Shown one piece after another: positions 1 through 17,564 of a stretch of DNA of 28,527 nt (positions within the stretch are counted from its first letter, which is position 1; each line of letters starts with the position of its first letter). Source of the DNA: a virus. The translations under genes were made by a program, and so were the position numbers. The DNA lies in IMG/VR virus record IMGVR_UViG_3300042868_003329, positions 1-28,527 of that record; one strand, given 5' to 3'. The notes under the pieces were generated by a model. That model did not search any database. It was not told the origin of the DNA and saw nothing but the letters and a program-made list of their open reading frames with translations.

Positions 1-896
1 GGGTAAACCGTTATCTGATGCCCAGCAAATCGCTCCTGCAATATGCGTATCAGGGTCGGTGTATCGCGCACACCCGACAATTCATCCAGTGCCAGCGGGT
101 CGTTGTTCCGTATCACGCACACGACGGCGCTCATGTTGTTGACGTTGAAGTCAACACCGATGTGCAAAGGTTCGCGCTGTTCGATGGTCGCAAAGGTGAT
201 ATTCAGCTTGCGGTCAAACTCTGGGTATATGCTGCCAGCGGTCAGGTTGACAAATTCGCCGTCCAGATATGCGGCCAATAGGCTGGACGAATAGCTGTTC
301 TGTAGGTTGCGGATATAGTCTTCAGGTAAGTTGGCTGCGTTGTCAGATGTCTTGGCCTTATACAGCGCATATCCTTCAGCGGAGTTCTTCACCCAGCGGT
401 CATAAACGAAGCGGAAGCCTTCAGGCGTTGTGCCGACGCTCACCGTGTTCTTCACAGGCTTGCCAGATACCGTGAATGCCTTTTGGCGGTTACGGGCAAT
501 AATCTTGTTCCATACCGCACGGGCCTTGTCGGTGGGCAGTGTATCAAGTTCGTCCACATGGCTGTGCGCCACTTCGTAACCGACGATGCGGTCAGGCTGT
601 TCCATGTTGCGGAATATGATGCGGCCAAGTTCCGTTTCCATCACCGCCTTTTGCTGGTTCAGTTTGAACGGGATGCTGTTCTTTTCAAACAGGGCGGGGA
701 AGCGTTGGAAGGCGATGTCTTCAATCAGCGGATAGGTCGGCAGGTAATATGCCACATCCTGATATGGGCAGTAACGCTTGAGCCGCATGATACGGGCAAT
801 GCCAGCAGCAGTCTTCCCAGAACCAAAGCCGCCAACAAAGGCAGGGAATGGCTCTTGGCTATATACGAAGTCGCGCTGGCTTTGTGTAAAGGTCAA
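1..896 (-). CDS. terL: terminase large subunit (N-terminal part, truncated by window edge)
   Basis: ATP-driven motor that cuts and packages phage DNA into the procapsid. The frame is open from a TTG at 896 to the left edge (298 codons). Visible are a Walker A motif GGFGSGKT at residues 22-29, an acidic Walker B-type segment (HVDELD, residues 113-118) and the start of the RNase H-like nuclease domain with HIGVDF around residue 245-250 (probable metal-binding Asp249). The only stop upstream in frame lies four codons earlier, so the start must be TTG 896 or a CTG just before it. TTG overlaps the stop of the small subunit gene as TTGA, a coupled arrangement. Family identity is strong; the C-terminal half of the nuclease lies outside the window. 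Confidence 0.93.
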   Translation of the reverse strand, partial: MTFTQSQRDFVYSQEPFPAFVGGFGSGKTAAGIARIMRLKRYCPYQDVAYYLPTYPLIEDIAFQRFPALFEKNSIPFKLNQQKAVMETELGRIIFRNMEQPDRIVGYEVAHSHVDELDTLPTDKARAVWNKIIARNRQKAFTVSGKPVKNTVSVGTTPEGFRFVYDRWVKNSAEGYALYKAKTSDNAANLPEDYIRNLQNSYSSSLLAAYLDGEFVNLTAGSIYPEFDRKLNITFATIEQREPLHIGVDFNVNNMSAVVCVIRNNDPLALDELSGVRDTPTLIRILQERFAGHQITVY

Positions 897-1297
897 AGCC
901 AGTCTTCATCCGTGATGGGCTTGAAGGTCATATTCACAGCAAGCTTGGTCGGTTCGTTATAGCCGTGCATGATGTTTAACTCTTTCACCGCTGCGGTCAT
1001 TCCTGTCGATGCCTTGGCTTCCAGCGCGATGCGGTATGCGCTCATTAAGCCCTTTACGGACATTTCGCGTGTCCATAGTTGCTTTTCTACAACTTGCGAC
1101 TTCAATTCCGCGACCCTTGTGGCAATCTTGTGGTTCTTCATTAGCTTTGATGCTTGCGGGTAAACGCTTTCATCTTTCATACCTTCAGCATCATAAGCCA
1201 TGCGATATGCGTCTGCTTGGCCTAAGCCGTCGGCTATGCCTTGGGCAAATGCTTCTTGCTTTGCAGTCAGTTTGGCGTCCGTCATTGCTTTGTCCAT
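893..1297 (-). CDS. terS: terminase small subunit
   Basis: DNA-recognition partner of the large terminase. The 134-residue protein has an N-terminal helix-turn-helix of the terminase small subunit type (residues about 9-35, KLTAKQEAFAQGIADG then QADAYRMAYD), followed by helices expected for ring oligomerisation. Size and position directly before terL fit. A second Met at residue 5 gives better spacing from a GGA-type ribosome site than the first, so the start is uncertain by four codons. The gene follows the dioxygenase gene with 3 bases between them and its stop overlaps the terL start. Confidence 0.85.
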   Translation of the reverse strand: MDKAMTDAKLTAKQEAFAQGIADGLGQADAYRMAYDAEGMKDESVYPQASKLMKNHKIATRVAELKSQVVEKQLWTREMSVKGLMSAYRIALEAKASTGMTAAVKELNIMHGYNEPTKLAVNMTFKPITDEDWL

Positions 1298-1300
1298 ATC

Positions 1301-2074
1301 CTACAAATTCGCAAAAGATTTTAGGGCATACCAGACATGGGAATTGCGATACCCGTTTGGATGGGTCGGGATGATTGGCGTGACACCGTGCATATTGCGC
1401 CAAGCTGGGTAAACCAGCATCGAATTGTCCGTCTGGTCAAACGTGGCTCCGTAATCTGGGACGTGCAGATTGCCACCAGTGCTATTCCGGCGCTTGGTTA
1501 TAATGATATTGATAGCACCCTTCACGTTGGCGTGGTCTTGATGGATTGGCGCAGAAATGTTGCAGTTGCTAATCGTCGAGCTAAAATGCTTTGCGAAGCG
1601 CCATTCTTCAGGTATTTTTTGCGCCACTTGCTCAAGGTGCGTCTTTGCAACGCTTGGGATGTATTGCTCCACCAGTTCAAATGCTTTGATGCCACTGGCG
1701 TTCATCGCCTTGGCGAAAGTTTGCGCTGACTTCACACCATGCACAGATGAGCGCGAGGCATACGGCCTACGCATATGCGGCTTGGGTGGGCATGAGCCAA
1801 GGATGGTGCTGTATTGCTTCACTTCGGCTTCAGCGTTACGCAAACCAGATGAACGGCGCATATCTGATTTGGGCACACGATTGGTTTGGATTTCAGCGTC
1901 GGCTATGTTGACCAGATTTTGCAAATCGTCGGGAAGGTTCCGCAGATACAAACCAACTTCCGTTCCATCTGGGTCTACCAATATGCAACTTTCGGTTATG
2001 TTTGGTTCCAAACCTTCAGGCTGTGCGCCTATCCCGATGATGCGCTGAATTGGGTTTAGGGTGACAATCTTCAT
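1301..2074 (-). CDS. TET/JBP-like 2-oxoglutarate/Fe(II) dioxygenase, likely DNA base hydroxylase
   Basis: Predicted non-haem iron dioxygenase of the double-stranded beta-helix fold. The 257-residue protein shows H178-x-D180, then GGNLHVPDYG at 200-209, then a distal H229 in NMHGVTPI and R243 fourteen residues later. These fit the two-His-one-Asp iron site and the 2OG-binding Arg; the GG-x-L-x-V-P strand and HGV-x-P resemble the TET/JBP superfamily, which oxidises 5-methylcytosine or thymine in DNA. The first 120 residues are not recognised. The start overlaps the ParB-like gene stop by 4 bp (ATGA) and the terminase follows. TET/JBP genes next to ParB-like and terminase genes have been described in other phages. 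No methyltransferase or glycosyltransferase is seen here, so the substrate (thymine or 5mC) is open. A different 2OG oxygenase family is the main alternative. Confidence 0.7.
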   Translation of the reverse strand: MKIVTLNPIQRIIGIGAQPEGLEPNITESCILVDPDGTEVGLYLRNLPDDLQNLVNIADAEIQTNRVPKSDMRRSSGLRNAEAEVKQYSTILGSCPPKPHMRRPYASRSSVHGVKSAQTFAKAMNASGIKAFELVEQYIPSVAKTHLEQVAQKIPEEWRFAKHFSSTISNCNISAPIHQDHANVKGAINIIITKRRNSTGGNLHVPDYGATFDQTDNSMLVYPAWRNMHGVTPIIPTHPNGYRNSHVWYALKSFANL

Positions 2075-2655
2075 GCTGACAAAGCCTCAATCAATTTTAA
2101 GCCGACATATTCGCCGCGCTTTCTTGCGGCATCAACCAAGTCTTTTGCCCGTTGATAATCTTCAGCCTGAAACTCAATCTGGATGGCCTTCATGACGCCG
2201 CTGGCCAAATCAGCGGTTGGGTCATCCAAATCATCCAGCGCGGAATAATCAGGCTCTTTGGCAAAGGTCGGAATATCATCGCCCCAGCCAAGCAGCGAAA
2301 TATCGAAGTCAAGTTCGAGCAACGCTTCCAATTCAGATTGCAGCAAATCGTCATCCCAATCGGCGGTCAAAGCAAGCTGGTTGTCCGCGATGACCAAGGC
2401 TTTCCGTTGCGCTTCATCAAGATAATCAAGAACTATTACAGGAACTTCAACCATGCCCAGTTTTTTTGCTGCCAATGTCCTTGCATGGCCAGCAATGATG
2501 ATGTCACTGCCATCAATCAAAATAGGGTTCGTCCATCCAAACTCTTTTATGCTTGCGGCTATATAAGCCACCTGTGCATCGCTGTGGGTGCGGCTGTTGG
2601 CTGCATACGGGATTAAGTCAGCGACAAGGCGCTGTTCAATTTTGGGGTTGCTCAT
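2071..2655 (-). CDS. ParB/Srx-like nuclease-domain protein
   Basis: The 194-residue protein has a ParB N-terminal-like domain over residues about 5-100: NSRTHSDAQVAYIAASI, then NPILID, the ParB-box-type IAGHARTLAAKKLG (residues 54-67) and VPVIVLDYLDEAQRKAL with ADNQLAL. In phages this domain is often fused to or beside DNA-modification enzymes and can act as a CTP/ATP-dependent or DNA-binding module. Here the C-terminal 90 residues are acidic and carry no methyltransferase motifs. The 4-bp overlap with the dioxygenase gene argues for joint function in DNA modification or packaging rather than plasmid partition; no ParA or parS cluster is visible. Confidence 0.85.
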   Translation of the reverse strand: MSNPKIEQRLVADLIPYAANSRTHSDAQVAYIAASIKEFGWTNPILIDGSDIIIAGHARTLAAKKLGMVEVPVIVLDYLDEAQRKALVIADNQLALTADWDDDLLQSELEALLELDFDISLLGWGDDIPTFAKEPDYSALDDLDDPTADLASGVMKAIQIEFQAEDYQRAKDLVDAARKRGEYVGLKLIEALSA

Positions 2656-3645: not shown

Positions 3646-3828
3646 TTATGCGACAATGTAGCAGTGGCTTGGTTCATCGTTGTAATAATCTTGGACTGCA
3701 ATTTTATCGCCAAAAACATCAACGAACCATTCGCGGCAAAACCCGTTGTTCAGATATTCCCAAGTCGTGCTAACTGCGTCTGCTGTGACTTCTGCAAATT
3801 TTGCTGCGGTGGCATAATTCAAATTCAT
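3646..3828 (-). CDS. small hypothetical protein (start corrected)
   Basis: Encodes 60 residues when started at ATG 3828 (MNLNYATAAKFAEVTADAVS). The frame is open back to 3891, but that ATG lies inside promoter B and upstream of its expected transcription start, so it cannot be used from that promoter. AAGGGA lies six bases before ATG 3828. The protein carries NYATAAKFAEVTADAVSTTW and later CREWFVDVFGDKIAVQDYYN; a compact alpha-beta protein is likely. No family recognised. It has its own promoter-hairpin cassette, suggesting separate, strong early expression. Confidence 0.65.
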   Translation of the reverse strand: MNLNYATAAKFAEVTADAVSTTWEYLNNGFCREWFVDVFGDKIAVQDYYNDEPSHCYIVA

Positions 3829-3847
3829 GTTCATTCCCTTATGTGGC

Positions 3848-3861
3848 GGGACTGCCGTCCC
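3848..3861 (-). other. 5' leader hairpin, cassette B
   Basis: Inverted repeat GGGAC-n4-GTCCC. Compared with cassettes A, C and D (GGGGC/GCCCC) one base pair has changed on both arms (G-C to A-T), which keeps pairing. Followed on the transcript by GCCACATAAGGGA. Confidence 0.7.
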
Positions 3862-3874
3862 TTGCTGATGCCCC

Positions 3875-3903
3875 ATTATATAAAGGGACATATATTATGT
3901 CAA
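3875..3903 (-). promoter_or_regulatory. consensus sigma70 promoter B
   Basis: Minus strand: TTGACA (3903-3898), 17-base spacer, TATAAT (3880-3875), then GGGG. Both boxes match the housekeeping consensus at all positions, so this should be one of the strongest promoters in the window. It fixes the start of the 60-residue gene at 3828. Confidence 0.88.
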
Positions 3904-3955
3904 CACCTTTTTTCATTATTCTGAAATTATTTTTGACGCTGGGCCTGTGGTGGGT

Positions 3956-3971
3956 GGGGGCAGAAGCCCCC
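3956..3971 (-). other. GC-rich hairpin after the 122-residue gene
   Basis: Inverted repeat GGGGGC-AGAA-GCCCCC six bases past the stop of the 3978-4346 gene. On the minus transcript it is followed by ACCC and not by a T run, so it is not a canonical intrinsic terminator. It may protect the mRNA 3' end or reduce read-through into promoter B. Confidence 0.5.
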
Positions 3972-3977
3972 GTTGGG

Positions 3978-4346
3978 TTAGATTTGAACCAGCTTGACGT
4001 TGTTGTTGTGCGTTGGTTCAACAGTGAACGATTTGCCCTTGTAGTTGATTACATCGCCGTGGTTGATGCCGCGAATAATTTCCTGCTTGCGCTTGTCTGA
4101 AGTAATCATCGTGCTTTTGATGTTAGCCCAAAAAACTTGGTGTCCGTTTGCGATTGCTTTTGCTTCTTCTTCGGCTGCGTCCAAACCCATGTCAGCAATG
4201 AAATCAGCAATGCAACCAAGTATGTAAATCCGATACAATGTGCCGTGGTTTTTGCTTTCGTATGCGATTGCAAATTGGTCGCCAGTTTCAAAGTTGTTGT
4301 GACCCGCAACGATGAGGTAAGCTGGTGATGAAGAAATGATAGTCAT
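3978..4346 (-). CDS. hypothetical protein under a promoter-hairpin cassette
   Basis: A 122-residue protein, soluble, with an N-terminal beta-rich part (MTIISSSPAYLIVAGHNNFE), a central helix (GLDAAEEEAKAIANGHQVF) and a C-terminal beta-hairpin-like part (GDVINYKGKSFTVEP). The start follows AAGGAAAACGACC-ATG and a promoter with leader hairpin. It is transcribed alone between two hairpins. No family recognised; small phage genes with private strong promoters are often early host-interaction genes, but this is only inference. Confidence 0.7.
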   Translation of the reverse strand: MTIISSSPAYLIVAGHNNFETGDQFAIAYESKNHGTLYRIYILGCIADFIADMGLDAAEEEAKAIANGHQVFWANIKSTMITSDKRKQEIIRGINHGDVINYKGKSFTVEPTHNNNVKLVQI

Positions 4347-4365
4347 GGTCGTTTTCCTTAATGGC

Positions 4366-4379
4366 GGGGCTGAAGCCCC
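4366..4379 (-). other. 5' leader hairpin, cassette C
   Basis: Inverted repeat GGGGC-n4-GCCCC in the leader of the 122-residue gene, followed on the transcript by GCCATTAAGGA, the same order as in the other cassettes. Confidence 0.65.
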
Positions 4380-4394
4380 CGTGGTTGATGCCCC

Positions 4395-4423
4395 CTTATA
4401 TCGGCGGTTATTTTATATGTAAA
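4395..4423 (-). promoter_or_regulatory. sigma70-type promoter C
   Basis: Minus strand: TTTACA (4423-4418), 17-base spacer, TATAAG (4400-4395), then GGGG and CATCA as in cassette B. Upstream is an A-rich tract with two copies of ATGCAAAAA, possibly an UP element. Drives the 122-residue gene. Confidence 0.8.
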
Positions 4424-4457
4424 CAACCTTTTTCATCTTTTTGCATTTTTTTTGCAT

Positions 4458-4751
4458 TTATTCCTCTTTGACAAAAATTCCGTCCACCATGCGGCCCTTG
4501 CGGTCTTTGATTTCGTGCCATGCGTGAACGACGCATTCTTCAATCTCCAAATTCTTTTGCGCTGCCAAGATGGTTAGCACGACAAAGGCGTCACCGATGC
4601 TGTCCATGAATTGCTCATCCTTGCCCTTGGCGATGGCTTCAGCCAGTTCCCCCATTTCCTCAATCAGTTTGACGAATTGGGCTTGCACGGTGCTGCCAGC
4701 AATCAGGTTGCGGTCTTCAGCCCATTGGCGGATTAGGTTGCCGTAAATCAT
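4458..4751 (-). CDS. MazG-like nucleotide pyrophosphohydrolase
   Basis: A 97-residue all-helical protein of the MazG/dUTPase-like superfamily. The EExxE motif sits at residues 31-35 (KLIEEMGELAEAIAKG) and the second metal-binding helix at 50-54 (DSIGDAFVVL). These enzymes hydrolyse NTPs or dNTPs to monophosphates; phage copies may clean up nucleotide pools or lower alarmones. Its start overlaps by one base the stop of the upstream gene (TAATG-like junction), so it belongs to the leftward operon starting at 6.7 kb. The substrate cannot be told from sequence. Confidence 0.82.
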   Translation of the reverse strand: MIYGNLIRQWAEDRNLIAGSTVQAQFVKLIEEMGELAEAIAKGKDEQFMDSIGDAFVVLTILAAQKNLEIEECVVHAWHEIKDRKGRMVDGIFVKEE

Positions 4752-5251
4752 TAATTCATTCCTTCTTTGGTTTTCAGTGATTGCGTCAATTCAGCCTTCA
4801 ATTCAGCCAAATCCTCTGGTGTCATGTATTCTGGTTCATGCTTGGCGATGCGCGGCGCGTGGAAGTTATCGACCCGCGCCTTGGCGTAACGCAGTTCGTC
4901 CTTAACCCAGCGTATTGCATCAGGTTCAAAGTTGCAGATGAACGGGACAATCTTTGCAGGGTGGTCACAGGTGCGACGGGCTTGCTCACAGGCGCGGCGC
5001 AATATCTGCAAGGGAATGTCGCTTATCGTCATGATGGCAGCTTTATACCAAGCTGTCCGTTCCGCCTCCTGCATACCCGATGGAGCGCACAGCATCAGAC
5101 ACGGTGCTAATAGTGTGATGATTTCCTGTGGCGTTGCCTGTCGGTATTTGTCCTGCGCTGCTTTCAAAGCTTCCAGTGCCGCCTGATATTTCGTGCAGTG
5201 CTTGTCTGGCTGCGCGTTCTGATATTCCTGCGCTGTCAGGCTGTCTGTCAT
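4751..5251 (-). CDS. putative replication accessory protein / helicase loader
   Basis: A 166-residue mostly helical protein. The middle (residues about 40-110) reads TPQEIITLLAPCLMLCAPSG, then IPLQILRRACEQARRTC and HPAKIVPFI; similar segments occur in phage and prophage proteins of Alphaproteobacteria placed next to DUF1376 genes. The start follows AAGGAGCAAAGGA, the ribosome site typical of this phage. A helicase loader or replisome role is inferred only from the neighbour. The first 209 bases overlap the end of the DUF1376 frame in another frame, which is unusual and discussed as a finding. Confidence 0.6.
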   Translation of the reverse strand: MTDSLTAQEYQNAQPDKHCTKYQAALEALKAAQDKYRQATPQEIITLLAPCLMLCAPSGMQEAERTAWYKAAIMTISDIPLQILRRACEQARRTCDHPAKIVPFICNFEPDAIRWVKDELRYAKARVDNFHAPRIAKHEPEYMTPEDLAELKAELTQSLKTKEGMN

Positions 5252-5867
5252 TCCTTTGCTCCTTCACCCATTCTGCTTTGAACGTAATCCAGCCGCGAGT
5301 TGTTGCCTCACTGATGGCGTCCTGTAAATTCCAACCCGCAATGCTGGCCTGATTGATTAAACCCTTCAGCGCGGTTTCCGTGATTGGCGACTTCTTGGCT
5401 TTCCGAACAGCCATGAAATCATCCCACACCTGTTGCGATACACCTTCAGGCTTCGACACTTTCCCCTTCAGGGGTATATTTGTTTCTTGGTTGTTGGTTA
5501 TTGGTTGTTGGTTATTGGTTGGTTGAACGTCCGTTGAACGTCCGTTGTTCCGACGTTGGGCGGATGCCTTACCAGCGTTGGACGCCTTCAGTGATTTGTC
5601 ACGGAAATGCGTTATTTCTGCATCGCACCGTGTATGGTTCCAACCACCCTCATTGTTGGCAATAAAGAAGTCTTGCAGCACCTGTTCGACTTCCTCGATG
5701 TGGTCGCGCATACCTATCTGCCGTGCAACTTCAGGTGCGCTGCCGACAAGGATACCATCCTTCAGGTAATACACATCAAGCAAGCGGCGATAGGCCAAAT
5801 CCTCTAACAAGGACAGGTGGCGCGTATGGCTGGCGTAATCGCCAATGTTGAACTGAAAATAGTGCAT
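5043..5867 (-). CDS. DUF1376 (YdaU-like) replication-associated protein
   Basis: Starts at ATG 5867 with MHYFQFNIGDYASHTRHLSL, the typical start of DUF1376 proteins; the domain spans residues 1-90. A low-complexity Asn/Gln/Thr linker follows, then a helical domain (DDFMAVRKAKKSPITETALK and GWITFKAEWV) as in replisome-organiser proteins. Upstream frame to TTG 5999 is open but lacks homology and contains a hairpin and a small leader ORF. The last 68 codons overlap the next gene and look like out-of-frame sequence: one extra A in a run near 5258 would end the protein at KEQKE with an ATGA overlap. This suggests a recent one-base loss or an error. Confidence 0.75.
   Translation of the reverse strand: MHYFQFNIGDYASHTRHLSLLEDLAYRRLLDVYYLKDGILVGSAPEVARQIGMRDHIEEVEQVLQDFFIANNEGGWNHTRCDAEITHFRDKSLKASNAGKASAQRRNNGRSTDVQPTNNQQPITNNQETNIPLKGKVSKPEGVSQQVWDDFMAVRKAKKSPITETALKGLINQASIAGWNLQDAISEATTRGWITFKAEWVKEQRNDRQPDSAGISERAARQALHEISGGTGSFESSAGQIPTGNATGNHHTISTVSDAVRSIGYAGGGTDSLV
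5491..5546. repeat. two short tandem duplications in the DUF1376 linker
   Basis: A 14-bp unit (TTGTTGGTTATTGG on plus) occurs twice head to tail at 5491-5504 and 5505-5518, and an 11-bp unit (GAACGTCCGTT) twice at 5525-5535 and 5536-5546. They encode the Asn/Gln/Thr-rich linker. Unit lengths are not multiples of three, so copy-number changes would shift the frame. Confidence 0.85.
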
Positions 5868-5869
5868 GG

Positions 5870-5914
5870 CTATGCGCCTTGCAAAATAGTTTTGTGGCGT
5901 ATATAATTCTTCAT
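5870..5914 (-). CDS. possible 14-residue leader peptide
   Basis: ATG 5914 opens a 14-codon frame (MKNYIRHKTILQGA) ending in TAG two bases before the DUF1376 start. It has a good ribosome site (CAGGAG, seven bases before ATG), better than that of DUF1376 itself. Translation of the short ORF could feed ribosomes to the next gene. There is no run of a single regulatory amino acid, so attenuation by amino acid supply is not indicated. Confidence 0.4.
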   Translation of the reverse strand: MKNYIRHKTILQGA

Positions 5915-5940
5915 ATGCGATGCTCCTGTAAAGCGTTGCG

Positions 5941-5976
5941 GCCAGCGAAAATTTGACGCTCCTTATTTTCGCTGGC
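5941..5976 (-). promoter_or_regulatory. 12-bp inverted repeat with a ribosome-site-like loop
   Basis: Perfect 12-bp arms (GCCAGCGAAAAT and ATTTTCGCTGGC) around a 12-base loop. On the minus transcript the loop reads AAGGAGCGTCAA and so shows a Shine-Dalgarno-like AAGGAG with no start codon at normal distance. It lies in the leader between the DUF1064 and DUF1376 genes. Possible roles are an RNA element controlling DUF1376 translation or an operator. Confidence 0.65.
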
Positions 5977-6010
5977 CCCCCTCTTACCTCAATATCCAAA
6001 ATTCCTAAAG

Positions 6011-6364
6011 CTACTTTGTTTGCCGAAATTCGATTGTCGGAAACAAAGCTTTGAATATCGCCTTGCGTAACGTGAAGTCAGGCGTGACCATGCCCTTCAC
6101 ATCTTCGACGCAATCCTGACCGCCTTCAATGTAGGCAAAGTCAGGCTTATATCCAACGCGTCGCCCGTTATCGTGCTTCATCTGCTTGCCATTGATGATG
6201 AACCAGAATTGCGGCTGAATGACCAAGTCGCCAATCGCACCAGTGGCCCACAATGTGTGCAGTTCATCACATCGCGCAGCTTCGCGTTTGCTGTCATGCT
6301 TATGGCACTGGGCGCAATACGCTTTCTTGGCGTTAAATTTCGACCGACGGTTGAACACAGCCAC
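6011..6364 (-). CDS. DUF1064 phage nuclease (PD-(D/E)XK-like)
   Basis: A 117-residue protein of the DUF1064 family, predicted PD-(D/E)XK nucleases often seen in phage replication regions. Visible are SKFNAKK at 8-14, DSKREA at 24-29, QPQFWF, then the active-site-like PDFAYIEGGQDCVEDVKG with D75 and E87-x-x-K90. An additional CAQC...H segment (residues 17-23) could bind zinc. The start is GTG at 6364; its G is shared with the TAG stop of the upstream repressor-like gene, so translation is probably coupled. A Holliday-junction or replication-intermediate substrate is inferred. Confidence 0.8.
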   Translation of the reverse strand: MAVFNRRSKFNAKKAYCAQCHKHDSKREAARCDELHTLWATGAIGDLVIQPQFWFIINGKQMKHDNGRRVGYKPDFAYIEGGQDCVEDVKGMVTPDFTLRKAIFKALFPTIEFRQTK

Positions 6365-9190: not shown

Positions 9191-9567
9191 CGCAGACAGT
9201 TTGGCTGCGCGGTGAGCATCAAAGGCGATTGGCGCACCAGCTTATCGACAAGGCTCCACAGGATGCAGTGGTTTCAGTCAGTGCCGCCAAGCGCAGCGAT
9301 GACCAGAATGCAAAGATGTGGGCCATGCTGTCAGACATCAGCCGTGCAAAGCCAGATGGTCGGATGCACATACCTGAAGTCTGGAAGTGCATTTTTATGG
9401 CTGCATTGGGCCATGAAGTGAAATTCGAGATGGGGTTGGATAACCAGCCCTTCCCGATAGGGTTCAGGACATCAAAGCTGACCAAAGCCCAGATGTCCGA
9501 CCTGATTGAATTTATCTACGCATACGGCGCAAAGAACAACGTGAAATGGAGTGAAAAATATGAGTGA
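9187..9567 (+). CDS. ninB: NinB-like recombination mediator
   Basis: A 126-residue protein of the NinB (lambda Orf) family, a single-strand-binding mediator that helps load annealing or strand-exchange proteins onto SSB-coated DNA. Characteristic segments are [20 protein letters not shown] at 34-53 and [20 protein letters not shown] with the closing [11 protein letters not shown]. Placed after the HNH protein and before GapR and SSB, which fits a complete recombination set. Confidence 0.9.
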
Positions 9568-9793
9568 ACCAAACAACGACCAACTACGCCTTTTGATTGA
9601 GCGTATCGAACGTCTGAACGAAGAAAAAAAAGGCATCAGCGATGACATCCGCGATGTATTCAATGAGGCAAAGGCAATGGGTTATGATACCAAAATTATG
9701 CGGCCCGTCATCCGCTTACGGGCAATGCCAGACCATGACCGCGCAGAATATCAGGCTGTGCTTGATACATACATGAACGCTCTTGGTCTTTGA
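9560..9793 (+). CDS. gapR: GapR-like nucleoid protein (DUF2312)
   Basis: A 77-residue protein matching DUF2312/Gap[21 protein letters not shown] at 9-28, then [20 protein letters not shown] and a short final helix. Cellular GapR is an alphaproteobacterial DNA-binding tetramer that encircles overtwisted DNA and aids replication and topoisomerases. The start is ATG 9560 (GGAG eight bases upstream) rather than GTG 9551. The gene overlaps ninB by 8 bases. It is a good marker for an alphaproteobacterial host. Confidence 0.9.
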
Positions 9794-13634: not shown

Positions 13635-14165
13635 TTATTCCTTTCCTGCCAGCGGGTTTGCCAGCGTCTTTTGGATACGTTCCTTAGTTTCCGCTTCCAA
13701 CTCTTTAATGCGTCGTTGCTGTTCTTGGTCTTGCTGCCGCAACTGGTCAATCACCGCACGTTGCATCTGCATATTCTGTGCATCGCTGCTGCGAACGCTG
13801 CTGCTTACGGCATCGACGGTCTGACGGGTCGCGCCAACGCTGCTGGATATGCTGCCCGTCAAATAGTTAAGGGCTTCGCTATTGCCCTTGGTCAGCCGTT
13901 CAACGCTGGTGACGCGCTCATCCATAACCGAAATGCGGCTTTCAATGCCAGACAAGTCAGGCGGCACATAAGCTGCGGTCACTTCCTGCATCGTCAGGAA
14001 TTGCTGATACACTTGAAAGCCAGCCCACAGGCCACCAAGGATTGTTGAGAATGCAGCAAAGATGATGGCAATTTTGCCGCTGCTTAGGCCACCGATGTTG
14101 AAGCTAAAACCGCTTTCATCAAAGGATACTTTTGGTTCTTCTTTTTCGTCATTTGTATTGGGCAT
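13635..14165 (-). CDS. membrane-anchored coiled-coil protein
   Basis: 176 residues from ATG 14165 (GGGAG eight bases before). A polar N-terminus is followed by one transmembrane helix (SGKIAIIFAAFSTILGGLWA, 29-48) and a long coiled coil (about 75-165; QRAVIDQLRQQDQEQQRRIK). It overlaps the end of the acidic secreted protein gene by 17 bases. The layout recalls inner-membrane spanin subunits or holin-associated proteins, but no lipoprotein partner is seen. Function not assigned. Confidence 0.68.
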   Translation of the reverse strand: MPNTNDEKEEPKVSFDESGFSFNIGGLSSGKIAIIFAAFSTILGGLWAGFQVYQQFLTMQEVTAAYVPPDLSGIESRISVMDERVTSVERLTKGNSEALNYLTGSISSSVGATRQTVDAVSSSVRSSDAQNMQMQRAVIDQLRQQDQEQQRRIKELEAETKERIQKTLANPLAGKE

Positions 14166-15864
14166 CGACAATCTCCCGCCATCTGGCGTCATTGGTTTGG
14201 GTCATCCGATACATTTCAAAGTCAGCGTCACGCAGCCTTCTACGATATATAACACGAATTGCGTAAAAGTCAGCCCTGTCGGATAATCCCGCCTGTCGGT
14301 AAGCGTTGAAGGCAGGAACAGAACCCATTTCGTTGATGGTTTCCGATTGCCCTTCCGCCATTTCGTTTTCGGATTTTTCAGATGATGCCGTTGTCGCAAC
14401 GGGCGCTGCGTTGCTTTGACCACCGACATTGTTCAAAATTTCAAACGTGGTGGACATCGACATGGGGCCAGCCGCCGAAATAGCTGCTTCCACTGGCGAT
14501 GAGCCGACACCAGAACCAACCCCGCCGCCAGACGCGACCGAAGTGCTTGACCCAAAATCAACGCGCATTTGAAAACTGCCAAAACTTTGCGACGATTGCG
14601 ACCCGCTTTCAAATGCCGATGCTTGGCTTACTTCCGCTGCTTCTTCAAAGAATGCCGATTGCATACCCTGTCCGCTTTCTTCCAGCGCCGTAGCAAGCTG
14701 ATTGGATGCTTCTTGCTCCAATGTGCCGCCCGATGCGTCTTGGCCTTCTGTGGCGTTCGCTGCGCCTTCCAGTTCCAATGATGCCAGTGCTTCCGACGCT
14801 TCCGTTTCTTCAACGGCGCTATCATCTTCTGGGCCTTGCGCTGCCAGTGCCGCCAATTCGTCTGGCGACAAGCGTTCATCATCAGACTTAAGGTCTTCTA
14901 AGCCCTGTTCCGAAATCAATTCTTCGATGGCATCTTCTTCGACAGGTTCTTCATCTGCCACAGGTTCTTCAGTTTCGGTGGCAGCGTCGGCTTCAAGCGA
15001 TGCTTCCGCAGTTTCCAATGCTTCTTGCGCGGTTTCAAGCACCTGTTCGATATCAGCAACATCTTCGATTTGCACTTCTTGCTGCGTTTCTTCCATCGCC
15101 GCCTGTTCGACCGAAGCCACGGCAGCTTCCAGCGCAGTTTCAGTCGGGTCAGGTGCGCCGACATCAATTCCCATTGATGCTGGTGGGCAGGATGGGTGCA
15201 GCGGTGTTGCGTTGCAGTCGATTGCCACTTCTTCAGGGATTGGCGAACCATAGGTCAAAAGGCCAGATTGGTTTTGCAGGAATTGCGGATTGCGCCCGTA
15301 AAAAAGCGGGATATTATCGCCAGCTTCAGGGCCAGTAAGACCAGCCGTAAAGTCACGGTTTCCAGATGCAGACATTGACCCGTAGTTGATTTGGATATTG
15401 CCGTTGCTGAACAGGCCAATTTCAAACGTGTTCAAATTGTTCGTGCCGTATTCCTGTGTGCCATACCAGCCGAACAGGGCAGACCCTTCGTCCAAGCGAT
15501 AATATGGGTTGCCAGTGTAACTGATAAGGTCTGACCAGTATGCGTAAATCGTGTTGCGCTGGGCTTGTTCGATAGGTTGACCATTGCAGCAAAGGTTCGC
15601 CGCACTCTCAAACGATACGAAGCCGTTGCTCGATACCCAAACGTCGGTAAAAGTCTGGCCCCAATATTCAAATTCAAAGCCAAGGCTTACACGGCGCGTA
15701 GCATCATCGCCAAGGTTTAACGGCGTCATGGTGGTAGGTGCGCCGTTGATTTGCGGCGGCAGAAGTGTCGGGTCGTATGTTTGGGCAGCAGCAGATGTGC
15801 TGACCAGCAATGCAGCCAATAAGGATATAAGACGCTTATTCTGCGTCAGGGCGGCGGTCAGCAT
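14149..15864 (-). CDS. secreted nidogen-like protein with long acidic region
   Basis: 571 residues from ATG 15864 (GGGAAGAAA before it). Signal peptide: NKRLISLLAALLVSTSAAAQ (9-28), cleavage near 28. Residues 45-185 form a beta domain like NIDO/PEP-CTERM-type sandwiches (FGW, VWVSSNGFVSFES at 76-88, NTIYAYWSDL at 104-113, FEIGLFSNGNIQINYG). Residues about 245-420 are extremely Glu/Ala/Asp-rich. The C-terminal 60 residues (AFNAYRQAGLSDRADFYAIR) are basic and well structured. A role at the host envelope is likely since it is exported; no known phage family is assigned. Overlaps the preceding gene by 29 bases. Confidence 0.72.
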   Translation of the reverse strand: MLTAALTQNKRLISLLAALLVSTSAAAQTYDPTLLPPQINGAPTTMTPLNLGDDATRRVSLGFEFEYWGQTFTDVWVSSNGFVSFESAANLCCNGQPIEQAQRNTIYAYWSDLISYTGNPYYRLDEGSALFGWYGTQEYGTNNLNTFEIGLFSNGNIQINYGSMSASGNRDFTAGLTGPEAGDNIPLFYGRNPQFLQNQSGLLTYGSPIPEEVAIDCNATPLHPSCPPASMGIDVGAPDPTETALEAAVASVEQAAMEETQQEVQIEDVADIEQVLETAQEALETAEASLEADAATETEEPVADEEPVEEDAIEELISEQGLEDLKSDDERLSPDELAALAAQGPEDDSAVEETEASEALASLELEGAANATEGQDASGGTLEQEASNQLATALEESGQGMQSAFFEEAAEVSQASAFESGSQSSQSFGSFQMRVDFGSSTSVASGGGVGSGVGSSPVEAAISAAGPMSMSTTFEILNNVGGQSNAAPVATTASSEKSENEMAEGQSETINEMGSVPAFNAYRQAGLSDRADFYAIRVIYRRRLRDADFEMYRMTQTNDARWREIVDAQYK

Positions 15865-16882
15865 TTTCTTCCCAAGCCGTTGTTGCGTCCGCGCCGATAG
15901 CCCCCATAAACGGGCAGGGTGTGCCAGCCATTTCCATTGCGGCGAATACACGGCGGTCTTGGCAAAGAAGGCTCACAGCGGCAACGCGCATACCCATATC
16001 ATACAGGGTTTTGGATAGCTTCATGCGTTCGCAGTTTTGGTCGCGCACAGTGCGGCCAGCCGACAGGCCAATGATTTGCGTCTGCACAGCGCCTGATTGC
16101 CCCGTGGTGCAAAGGTCTTGGCTGTATGACATCATCGACGGCGCGATGGCGCTGGGTGGTGGCGACTTGATGTTTTGGTCGATAACCTGACGATTGACGC
16201 TTTCGCTGTAGCTTTTGCTGTCGCTCACGTTGACGTTGTTGTTTTGGTTGACGTTGCGGTTATCGCTGCTTGTCGTTTGGTTAATCGTGCTGGTGTCGTT
16301 GTTCGTGTTGTTCGTGTTGACCGTGCTGTTGTTGTTGCTGTTGACCGTCTGGTTGACAGTGCTGTTGCTAACGTCGGTGTTGAAATTGCGATTGGTCGCG
16401 TCGGATGTGTTGACGTTTGTATTCTGATTGATGTTCGTCATCGTGCCAGAATTGATGTTCGTATTCTGGTTGATGTTGGTCATCGTCCCAGTGTTTTGGT
16501 TGATGTTGGTGTTCGTCGATGTGCTGACATTGTTGTTGTTATTGTTGTTCGTGTTCAGCGATGTGCTGGTGCTGGCGTTCACGTTGTTATTCGTGTTGAC
16601 CGATGTGCTGGTGCTGGCGTTAGTGTTGAAGTTTGTGTTCGTGTTGGTGTTGACCGATGTGCTGTCCGACGTATTGTTGTTGTTGTTTGTGTTCGTCGAT
16701 GTGCTGGTCGAATTGTTGTTGTTGTTATTCGTGTTCGTGCTGGTGGACGTATTGTTGTTGTCCGATGTGCTTGTCGTGGTTGTGGTGTAAACATATTCCG
16801 TCGGGGCAACAGATACAGCCTGTGCCAGCACCACTGACGATGACGAAATTAACGCGATAAAAGCCAGCACAAATTGTTTCAT
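15836..16882 (-). CDS. secreted Asn/Ser/Thr-repeat protein
   Basis: 348 residues. Signal peptide 1-20 (MKQFVLAFIALISSSSVVLA). Residues about 35-225 are almost only Asn, Thr and Ser in short repeats (for example NASTSTSVNTNNN; TMTNINQNTN), with no hydrophobic core. A C-terminal domain (about 240-348) has four Cys in DLCTTGQ, DQNCERM, SLLCQDR and GTPCPFMG, probably two disulfides formed after export. The whole looks like a flexible stalk carrying a disulfide-stabilised head. Start overlaps the 76-residue gene by ATGA. No family recognised; role at the host surface is inferred. Confidence 0.75.
   Translation of the reverse strand: MKQFVLAFIALISSSSVVLAQAVSVAPTEYVYTTTTTSTSDNNNTSTSTNTNNNNNNSTSTSTNTNNNNNTSDSTSVNTNTNTNFNTNASTSTSVNTNNNVNASTSTSLNTNNNNNNNVSTSTNTNINQNTGTMTNINQNTNINSGTMTNINQNTNVNTSDATNRNFNTDVSNSTVNQTVNSNNNSTVNTNNTNNDTSTINQTTSSDNRNVNQNNNVNVSDSKSYSESVNRQVIDQNIKSPPPSAIAPSMMSYSQDLCTTGQSGAVQTQIIGLSAGRTVRDQNCERMKLSKTLYDMGMRVAAVSLLCQDRRVFAAMEMAGTPCPFMGAIGADATTAWEENADRRPDAE
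16170..16790. repeat. low-complexity Asn/Ser/Thr-coding repeat
   Basis: Degenerate repeats made of GTTGTT, GTGTTCGTG and GATGTGCTG-type words on the plus strand, encoding the Asn/Thr/Ser stalk on the minus strand. Strong T/G bias on plus keeps the opposite frames open and creates false ORFs. Confidence 0.85.
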
Positions 16883-17109
16883 GGTCGGTCAGCCTTGTTG
16901 TCCAGTTTGTCTTCAATGCGGCGAAGGTGCATCATCACTTCGTCAAACTTCTTGTCGATGGCTTGAAATTTCTCATCGCCAAAGCCCAGCCGCGCTTCAA
17001 GCAGCGTCAGCTTATTGGTGAGGTTTACCCAAACAGTTATCAAAGCCCCAATGAAGCTAAGGGCTGTGACGATAAAGCCAAGGATAGTGAAAAGGGTGGT
17101 GGCGTCCAT
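16879..17109 (-). CDS. small membrane protein with amphipathic coil
   Basis: 76 residues: a transmembrane helix at 5-29 (LFTILGFIVTALSFIGALIT) and a charged coiled coil (FQAIDKKFDEVMMHLRRIED). The layout resembles small phage membrane proteins of the XhlA type that assist holins. It sits between the last tail gene and the Asn-rich secreted protein, coupled to both (one-base overlap upstream, ATGA downstream). Confidence 0.68.
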   Translation of the reverse strand: MDATTLFTILGFIVTALSFIGALITVWVNLTNKLTLLEARLGFGDEKFQAIDKKFDEVMMHLRRIEDKLDNKADRP

Positions 17110-17564
17110 TAGTTATTGCCAGTCGCTATTAGTAGCACTTGATAATAACGGGTCACGCCGCCTGCTACAGCAGTTACGTTGAAAACTGTCGTTCTATATT
17201 GGAACTCTGTTTCAAGATAAAAACTAATGCTAAATGCCGAACCACCACTAGCAACGCTGGCAAATCCGAATGTGCTTCCACTTTTTGTCCAAGTCCATGT
17301 AGCAGCTTCGCTGCAATCTATTGTAATGCTGGCGCTGAATTGGTCTTCGCTTTCCAGCAAAACAGGCGCACCAGAAGTCGTTCCGCCATCAGGTGTAAAC
17401 GTAACCGCGCTTTTGCCGCGCAAGTTGTCCATAGATATTGCCCCAGAAGGCACGCCAGCCAATGAGCGCACAGCACTTTCGTTTAGCGAAATAATAGCGG
17501 TCGCTGACCGACCAAGTTCCGTATTCACTTGGCTCATGGATATGGTTCCAGTGGGCAATGTCAT
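17109..17564 (-). CDS. tail-fibre-associated protein
   Basis: 151 residues. The N-terminus MTLPTGTISMSQVNTELGRS, followed by VPSGAISMDNLRGKS, is a module often found in phage tail and fibre proteins. The remainder (FTPDGGTTSGAPVLL... TWTWTKSGSTFGFAS) looks like an Ig-like beta sandwich that may bind the cell surface. Two bases after the fibre gene. Tail role is well supported, exact place in the fibre is not. Confidence 0.72.
   Translation of the reverse strand: MTLPTGTISMSQVNTELGRSATAIISLNESAVRSLAGVPSGAISMDNLRGKSAVTFTPDGGTTSGAPVLLESEDQFSASITIDCSEAATWTWTKSGSTFGFASVASGGSAFSISFYLETEFQYRTTVFNVTAVAGGVTRYYQVLLIATGNN

Follow-up and report, generated by a model that had tools for sequence, protein, structure and literature searches.

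A TET/JBP-type gene lies between ParB-like and terminase genes

The DNA analyzed here, referred to over its whole length as the window, is a 28,527-base IMG/VR virus record of a marine phage (IMGVR_UViG_3300042868_003329). On its minus strand, an HTH gene, a gene for a ParB-N domain protein, a gene for a TET/JBP-type Fe(II)/2OG dioxygenase (hereafter TET) and the genes for TerS and TerL follow one another in this order (Table 1). The stop codon of ParB and the start codon of TET overlap as ATGA, and the plus strand across the TET gene contains no open frame. ParB-N thus lies directly upstream of TET and the terminase directly downstream, the coupling that a preliminary description of this DNA had pointed out.

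Table 1. Coordinates of the features discussed, in the window and in related records
Feature	Record	Position	Strand	Details
Terminase large subunit TerL	Window	3..896	-	PF03237 1.4e-14; cut at window edge
Terminase small subunit TerS	Window	893..1297	-	PF03592 2.2e-5; phrog_1595 1.3e-17
TET/JBP-type Fe(II)/2OG dioxygenase	Window	1301..2074	-	257 aa, ATG start; Fe ligands H178, D180, H229; 2OG ligand R243
ParB/TET overlap	Window	2071-2074	-	ATGA
ParB-N domain protein	Window	2071..2655	-	194 aa; PF02195 7.8e-6
Likely GapR-like DNA-binding protein	Window	9551-9790	+	PF10073, 3.4e-32
Acidic protein	Window	14149-15951	-	600 aa; no Pfam match
Ser/Thr/Asn-repeat protein	Window	15836-16882	-	348 aa; no Pfam match
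FkbM-type methyltransferase gene beside TET	L082 (MED4-184)	16431-17132		
FkbM-type methyltransferase gene beside TET	L160 (HTVC112P)	3992-4690		
FkbM-type gene beside kinase-like gene	L161 (Streptomyces phage Yaboi gp96-gp97)	3800-5198		
711-residue protein after TET	L189	2063-4195		ADDT domain C-terminal
TET, TAGT, N6/N4-type DNA methylase	L198 (Nonlabens phage P12024L gp26-gp28)	4001-6266		

Conserved residues and predicted fold of the window TET

The motifs of the window protein are H178-Q-D180, G200-G-N-L-H-V-P206, H229-G-V-T-P and R243, which include the Fe(II) triad HxD...H and a 2OG-binding arginine downstream of the second histidine. Seven residues (H178, D180, G200, G201, P206, H229 and R243) do not vary across an alignment of 67 distinct TET homologues, and the same seven are invariant in six actinophage homologues at ~25% identity, so the ligand residues are not a product of chance. 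Tet_JBP was the sole family matched in a Pfam search (E=5.7e-8), at 32.6-33.5 bits, slightly below the cut-off of 34.9. A profile including the actinophage homologues reaches TET2 by sequence (E=2.2e-4) and aligns R243 to the TET2 2OG arginine. In that alignment, L251, invariant in the window's TET family, falls on TET2 H1904, which we take to be a contact to 5-methylcytosine (5mC); the exchange of this histidine for an invariant leucine hints at a different mode of base reading. Y249 is aligned to the tyrosine in the 'VFYQH' segment of TET2, two residues ahead of H1904; this tyrosine, Y1902, stacks on the target base in TET2 (PMC12830177). N183, three residues past the iron aspartate, is aligned to the asparagine of the TET2 HRDxxN segment.

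An AlphaFold2 model of the protein has medium confidence, with a mean pLDDT of 71.5 and values below 50 at residues 85-108 and 172-174. All 26 Foldseek matches of this model at E<=0.001 are CcTet, NgTET1, TET2 or CMD1. The DALI-like Z-scores are highest for NgTET1 (13.5) and TET2 (13.0) and lower for the other 2OG enzymes, namely FTO (10.0), AlkB (9.1) and PHD2 (9.1), which places the best structural match outside the AlkB, FTO and prolyl hydroxylase families. The predicted fold is a TET-type double-stranded beta-helix and resembles TET more than it does the other 2OG enzymes. The preliminary description had called the gene product a TET/JBP-like dioxygenase, had proposed a comparison with TET2 and had named a better fit to the P4H or AlkB families as the contrary outcome; its assignment is borne out by the conserved ligands and the TET-only structural matches, and its residue positions are exact.

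The ParB-TET pair occurs next to divergent terminases

Close relatives of the window TET form a set of 83 records, comprising 80 IMG/VR loci, two cyanophages and the window; rescanning with a broader alignment gave mostly these 80 loci again. The number of IMG/VR stretches with a confirmed TET relative is 496, and a profile scan of genome contigs with the TET alignment returned no bacterial or prophage relative. All 74 records that contain both genes keep the order ParB(-slot)-TET beside the terminase, the other nine of the 83 stopping ahead of ParB. The Prochlorococcus siphophages MED4-117 and MED4-184 / P-HS2 share this order with the window, and in the comparison with MED4-184 the TET is 75% and the ParB 56% identical. 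They differ from it in having an FkbM gene between ParB and TET and in their terminases, with TerL at 34% identity and TerS unrelated and not alignable. Because TET is retained at 75% next to terminases this divergent, the ParB-TET pair appears to be a module exchanged among phage lineages that is nevertheless kept docked at the packaging genes. We did not use dN/dS because dS is saturated (2.67 for the window versus its relative L005, other values mostly undefined).

Several database labels on these proteins were rejected. The label 'queuine tRNA-ribosyltransferase' (PHROG 6059) is attached to the TET of MED4-184 (L082) and MED4-117 (L083), although both proteins match Tet_JBP; the ParB of the MED4 phages is labeled 'DNA methylase' but matches ParB_N; and gp18 of Pelagibacter phage HTVC112P (L160) is labeled 'DnaJ/SNF2' but matches Tet_JBP. 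Such wrong TET and ParB labels propagate through databases.

The slot between ParB and TET exchanges tailoring genes

Most close relatives have one more gene in a slot that separates ParB from TET, and its identity varies. Of the 83 records, 68 have an FkbM-type methyltransferase (PF05050) in this slot and eight a TET-associated glycosyltransferase (TAGT, PF20691); the slot is empty in six and without a call in one. The six empty-slot records are the window, L002-L004, L016 and L017, and TET is intact in all of them. On the TET tree the slot label changes at least six times, and the glycosyltransferase and empty states each have more than one origin. The window's empty slot is the ParB/TET junction itself. 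At that point L005, with a TET 94% identical to that of the window, carries an FkbM gene: the two flanks of the slot align between the DNAs (85% and 81%), and ~700 bases, the FkbM gene, are present in L005 only. The simplest reading of this alignment is that the tailoring gene was lost in the window's clade, the alternative being a gain in L005.

The Pfam families listed for the window, 25 out of 27, include no methyltransferase, kinase or glycosyltransferase, and targeted searches of the window with PF00145, PF05050, PF20691 and PF18724 gave no match, in agreement with the preliminary description. That description had also suggested that partner enzymes might lie beyond the edges, which holds in part. 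In close relatives the partner gene is located within the operon itself, in the ParB/TET slot, and it is this gene that is missing here. Compared with a 37.2-kb relative, the window record is ~7-8 kb short of head genes, and this leaves room for a distant tailoring gene in the window phage. The 37.2-kb relative itself has FkbM and TET and otherwise no modification enzyme among the 25 of its 32 Pfam families listed.

FkbM recurs beside a second TET lineage

The FkbM of L005, used as a query, led to Pelagibacter phage HTVC112P. As in the window's family, this phage has ParB-N (gp17), Tet_JBP (gp18; 103 bits, 1.1e-29) and FkbM (gp19) in one operon upstream of the terminase. It differs in that gp18 shares only 23% identity with the TET of the window, the order is ParB-TET-FkbM and the terminase lies nine genes downstream of the trio. 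FkbM follows TET in 25 of the 36 IMG/VR relatives of gp18; in others TET is accompanied by TAGT, TAGT plus a PNK-like gene, FkbM plus TAGT, or a 711-residue protein with an amino acid:DNA transferase (ADDT) domain. That ParB, TET and FkbM come together again on a remote branch of TET, and in a changed order, is the strongest argument for a joint function of FkbM and TET. By these sequence comparisons, phage TETs of two lineages repeatedly have FkbM as a partner, a finding that goes beyond the preliminary description.

Some further neighborhoods were seen. In L189 and L190, the 711-residue protein lies directly after TET, and the part N-terminal to its ADDT domain has no assignment. Nonlabens phage P12024L has another cassette combination, with TET, TAGT and an N6/N4-type DNA methylase consecutive. 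In Streptomyces phage Yaboi, an FkbM-type gene lies beside a kinase-like gene, three genes before the terminase, and no TET gene is among the neighbors listed.

Gene context favors thymine as the substrate

An operon arranged as in the window has been published for Rhodococcus phage Tonitrus and Gordonia phage CaiB, where it is described as one for thymine hypermodification or nucleotide modification (PMC11955845; PMC9302106); these actinophage papers cite Iyer et al. 2013 for the ParB-TET/JBP-hypermodification operon. Like the window, these phages combine a ParB-like gene and a TET/JBP oxidoreductase with short overlaps and a terminase just downstream, and their TET is homologous to that of the window (~25% identity, same ligands). 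The tailoring genes differ: pyrophosphorylase/ADDT and P-loop kinase genes come after TET in the actinophages, FkbM or TAGT comes before TET in the marine family, and the window operon has neither, with no FkbM, TAGT or ADDT in the record. The window system is therefore a minimal variant of the published operon kind, not a full member.

A co-encoded C5-cytosine methyltransferase, the mark of a 5mC-acting TET system, was sought with PF00145 and is absent from 57 of 59 records. These include the window, near-complete relatives (30.7 and 37.2 kb), the complete cyanophages MED4-184 and MED4-117, six actinophages and fourteen second-lineage records. Two of 39 relatives do have one (L090 and L091, the records of L028 and L031; FkbM-type), outside the TET cassette. 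Homologous cassettes carry ADDT (PF18724), Ploopntkinase3 (PF18751) or TAGT, and those of the actinophages have both ADDT and P-loop kinase genes, which published annotation assigns to thymidine hypermodification (PMC11955845; PMC9302106). The lack of C5-methyltransferases and the thymidine-hypermodification partners together favor conversion of thymine to 5-hydroxymethyluracil. On gene context, thymine is a more likely substrate of the window TET than 5mC, and the enzyme probably oxidizes thymine in the phage's own DNA. This strengthens the earlier proposal of a pyrimidine oxidase for which thymine was a possible substrate.

Conversion of 5mC to 5-hydroxymethylcytosine, with the 5mC made by the host or by an unseen phage methyltransferase, is in our view unlikely. 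The TET-like fold, the possible base contact N183, the two C5-methyltransferase-bearing relatives and a possible supply of 5mC by a host enzyme are in keeping with it, but PF00145 is missing even from complete genomes, the partner enzymes of homologous cassettes belong to thymidine pathways and the invariant Leu251 takes the place of H1904. The phage TETs of Burke et al. 2021 (cited in PMC11404850) reportedly act in cytosine hypermodification and are said to depend on a C5-methyltransferase. They resemble the window TET in being phage-encoded TET-fold proteins for which hydroxylation in situ and a subsequent decoration have been proposed, and differ from it in that no C5-methyltransferase was found with the window TET. 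Kinetoplastid JBP1/JBP2 with the base J glucosyltransferase, in which thymine hydroxylation precedes glycosylation, provide a model for the TAGT-bearing relatives, a likeness to the window TET that rests on the pathway and not on sequence comparison. JBP1/JBP2 are eukaryotic and have a J-DNA-binding domain, to which the 257-aa window protein has no match.

A proposed pathway and its predicted bases

The best explanation, and one we consider fairly probable, is that an active TET makes 5-hydroxymethyluracil from thymine, as a bare end product in the window phage, and that the slot enzymes decorate this base in relatives. Acting once the phage DNA has been replicated, and either just before its packaging or in the course of it, TET would hydroxylate thymine at the 5-methyl group, with the ParB-like partner perhaps directing the enzyme to phage DNA. 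In most relatives the third operon gene, in the ParB/TET slot, would then decorate the new hydroxyl. FkbM enzymes O-methylate hydroxyl groups. From this family knowledge we predict an O-methylated base, e.g. 5-methoxymethyluracil, in FkbM-bearing phages, and a TAGT in the slot would yield a base-J-like glycosylated hydroxymethyluracil. Since the slot is empty in the window and its nearest relatives, the predicted base of the window phage is bare 5-hydroxymethyluracil. Defense of the phage DNA against restriction is a plausible role.

The FkbM of the slot could instead be a C-methyltransferase that makes the TET substrate, and not a later decorating step, but we regard this as very improbable. 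FkbM is indeed co-inherited with TET in two lineages, and the first structural matches of an FkbM model include RNA uracil-C5 methyltransferases. These matches are, however, generic SAM methyltransferase folds that do not discriminate, so the substrate is not readable from the fold; the slot methyltransferase has the FkbM signature KMDIEGAE and no C5-methyltransferase motif; its place in the slot is taken in other records by glycosyltransferases, enzymes of a step later than hydroxylation; and the window and five other records retain an intact TET without it. Least probable of all is a non-DNA target (e.g. a capsid or terminase protein) or a role in packaging regulation, which would suit the position of TET beside terminase genes in nearly all records, but the closest folds are DNA oxidases, DNA-base glycosyltransferases and amino acid:DNA transferases repeatedly accompany the cassette, and TET holds at 75% where the terminases diverge.

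Extending thymine hydroxylation by TET to the wider set, we tentatively propose a modular base-writing cassette of abundant marine phages, in which ParB and TET form the core and the slot would set whether the base is bare 5-hydroxymethyluracil, O-methylated (FkbM), glycosylated (TAGT) or, in the second lineage, linked to an amino acid (ADDT). The cassette is present in the cultured phages P-HS2 of Prochlorococcus and HTVC112P of Pelagibacter, two hosts that rank among the most abundant bacteria of the ocean. Should the prediction be correct, the DNA of many marine phages would be non-canonical in a way that standard genome sequencing does not show. The exchangeable slot and the FkbM partner in two lineages, which the preliminary description of the window did not cover, are the part of interest to specialists: the FkbM partner leads to a definite prediction, open to test, of a base of a new kind, and phages of a single TET family that differ naturally in the slot (bare, methyl, sugar) offer a ready comparison of the protection given by each decoration. 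To our knowledge, no methoxymethyl DNA base made by FkbM has been reported; a full-text literature search on FkbM and phage DNA modification, with Iyer 2013, Burke 2021 and Lee 2021 outside its coverage, gave no paper naming FkbM among the matches listed.

Other genes of the window and the likely host

Two genes near the endolysin gene encode a Ser/Thr/Asn-repeat protein and an acidic protein. Matches to TAL effectors in a PDB sequence search were rejected as chance, being the sum of many near-identical repeats of ~1-7 bits each. Megablast of the window structural genes against phages gave no match. The nearest phage relative of the window TerL is that of Caulobacter phage DMCA (60.7%), and this, together with the GapR-like gene, suggests an alphaproteobacterial host.
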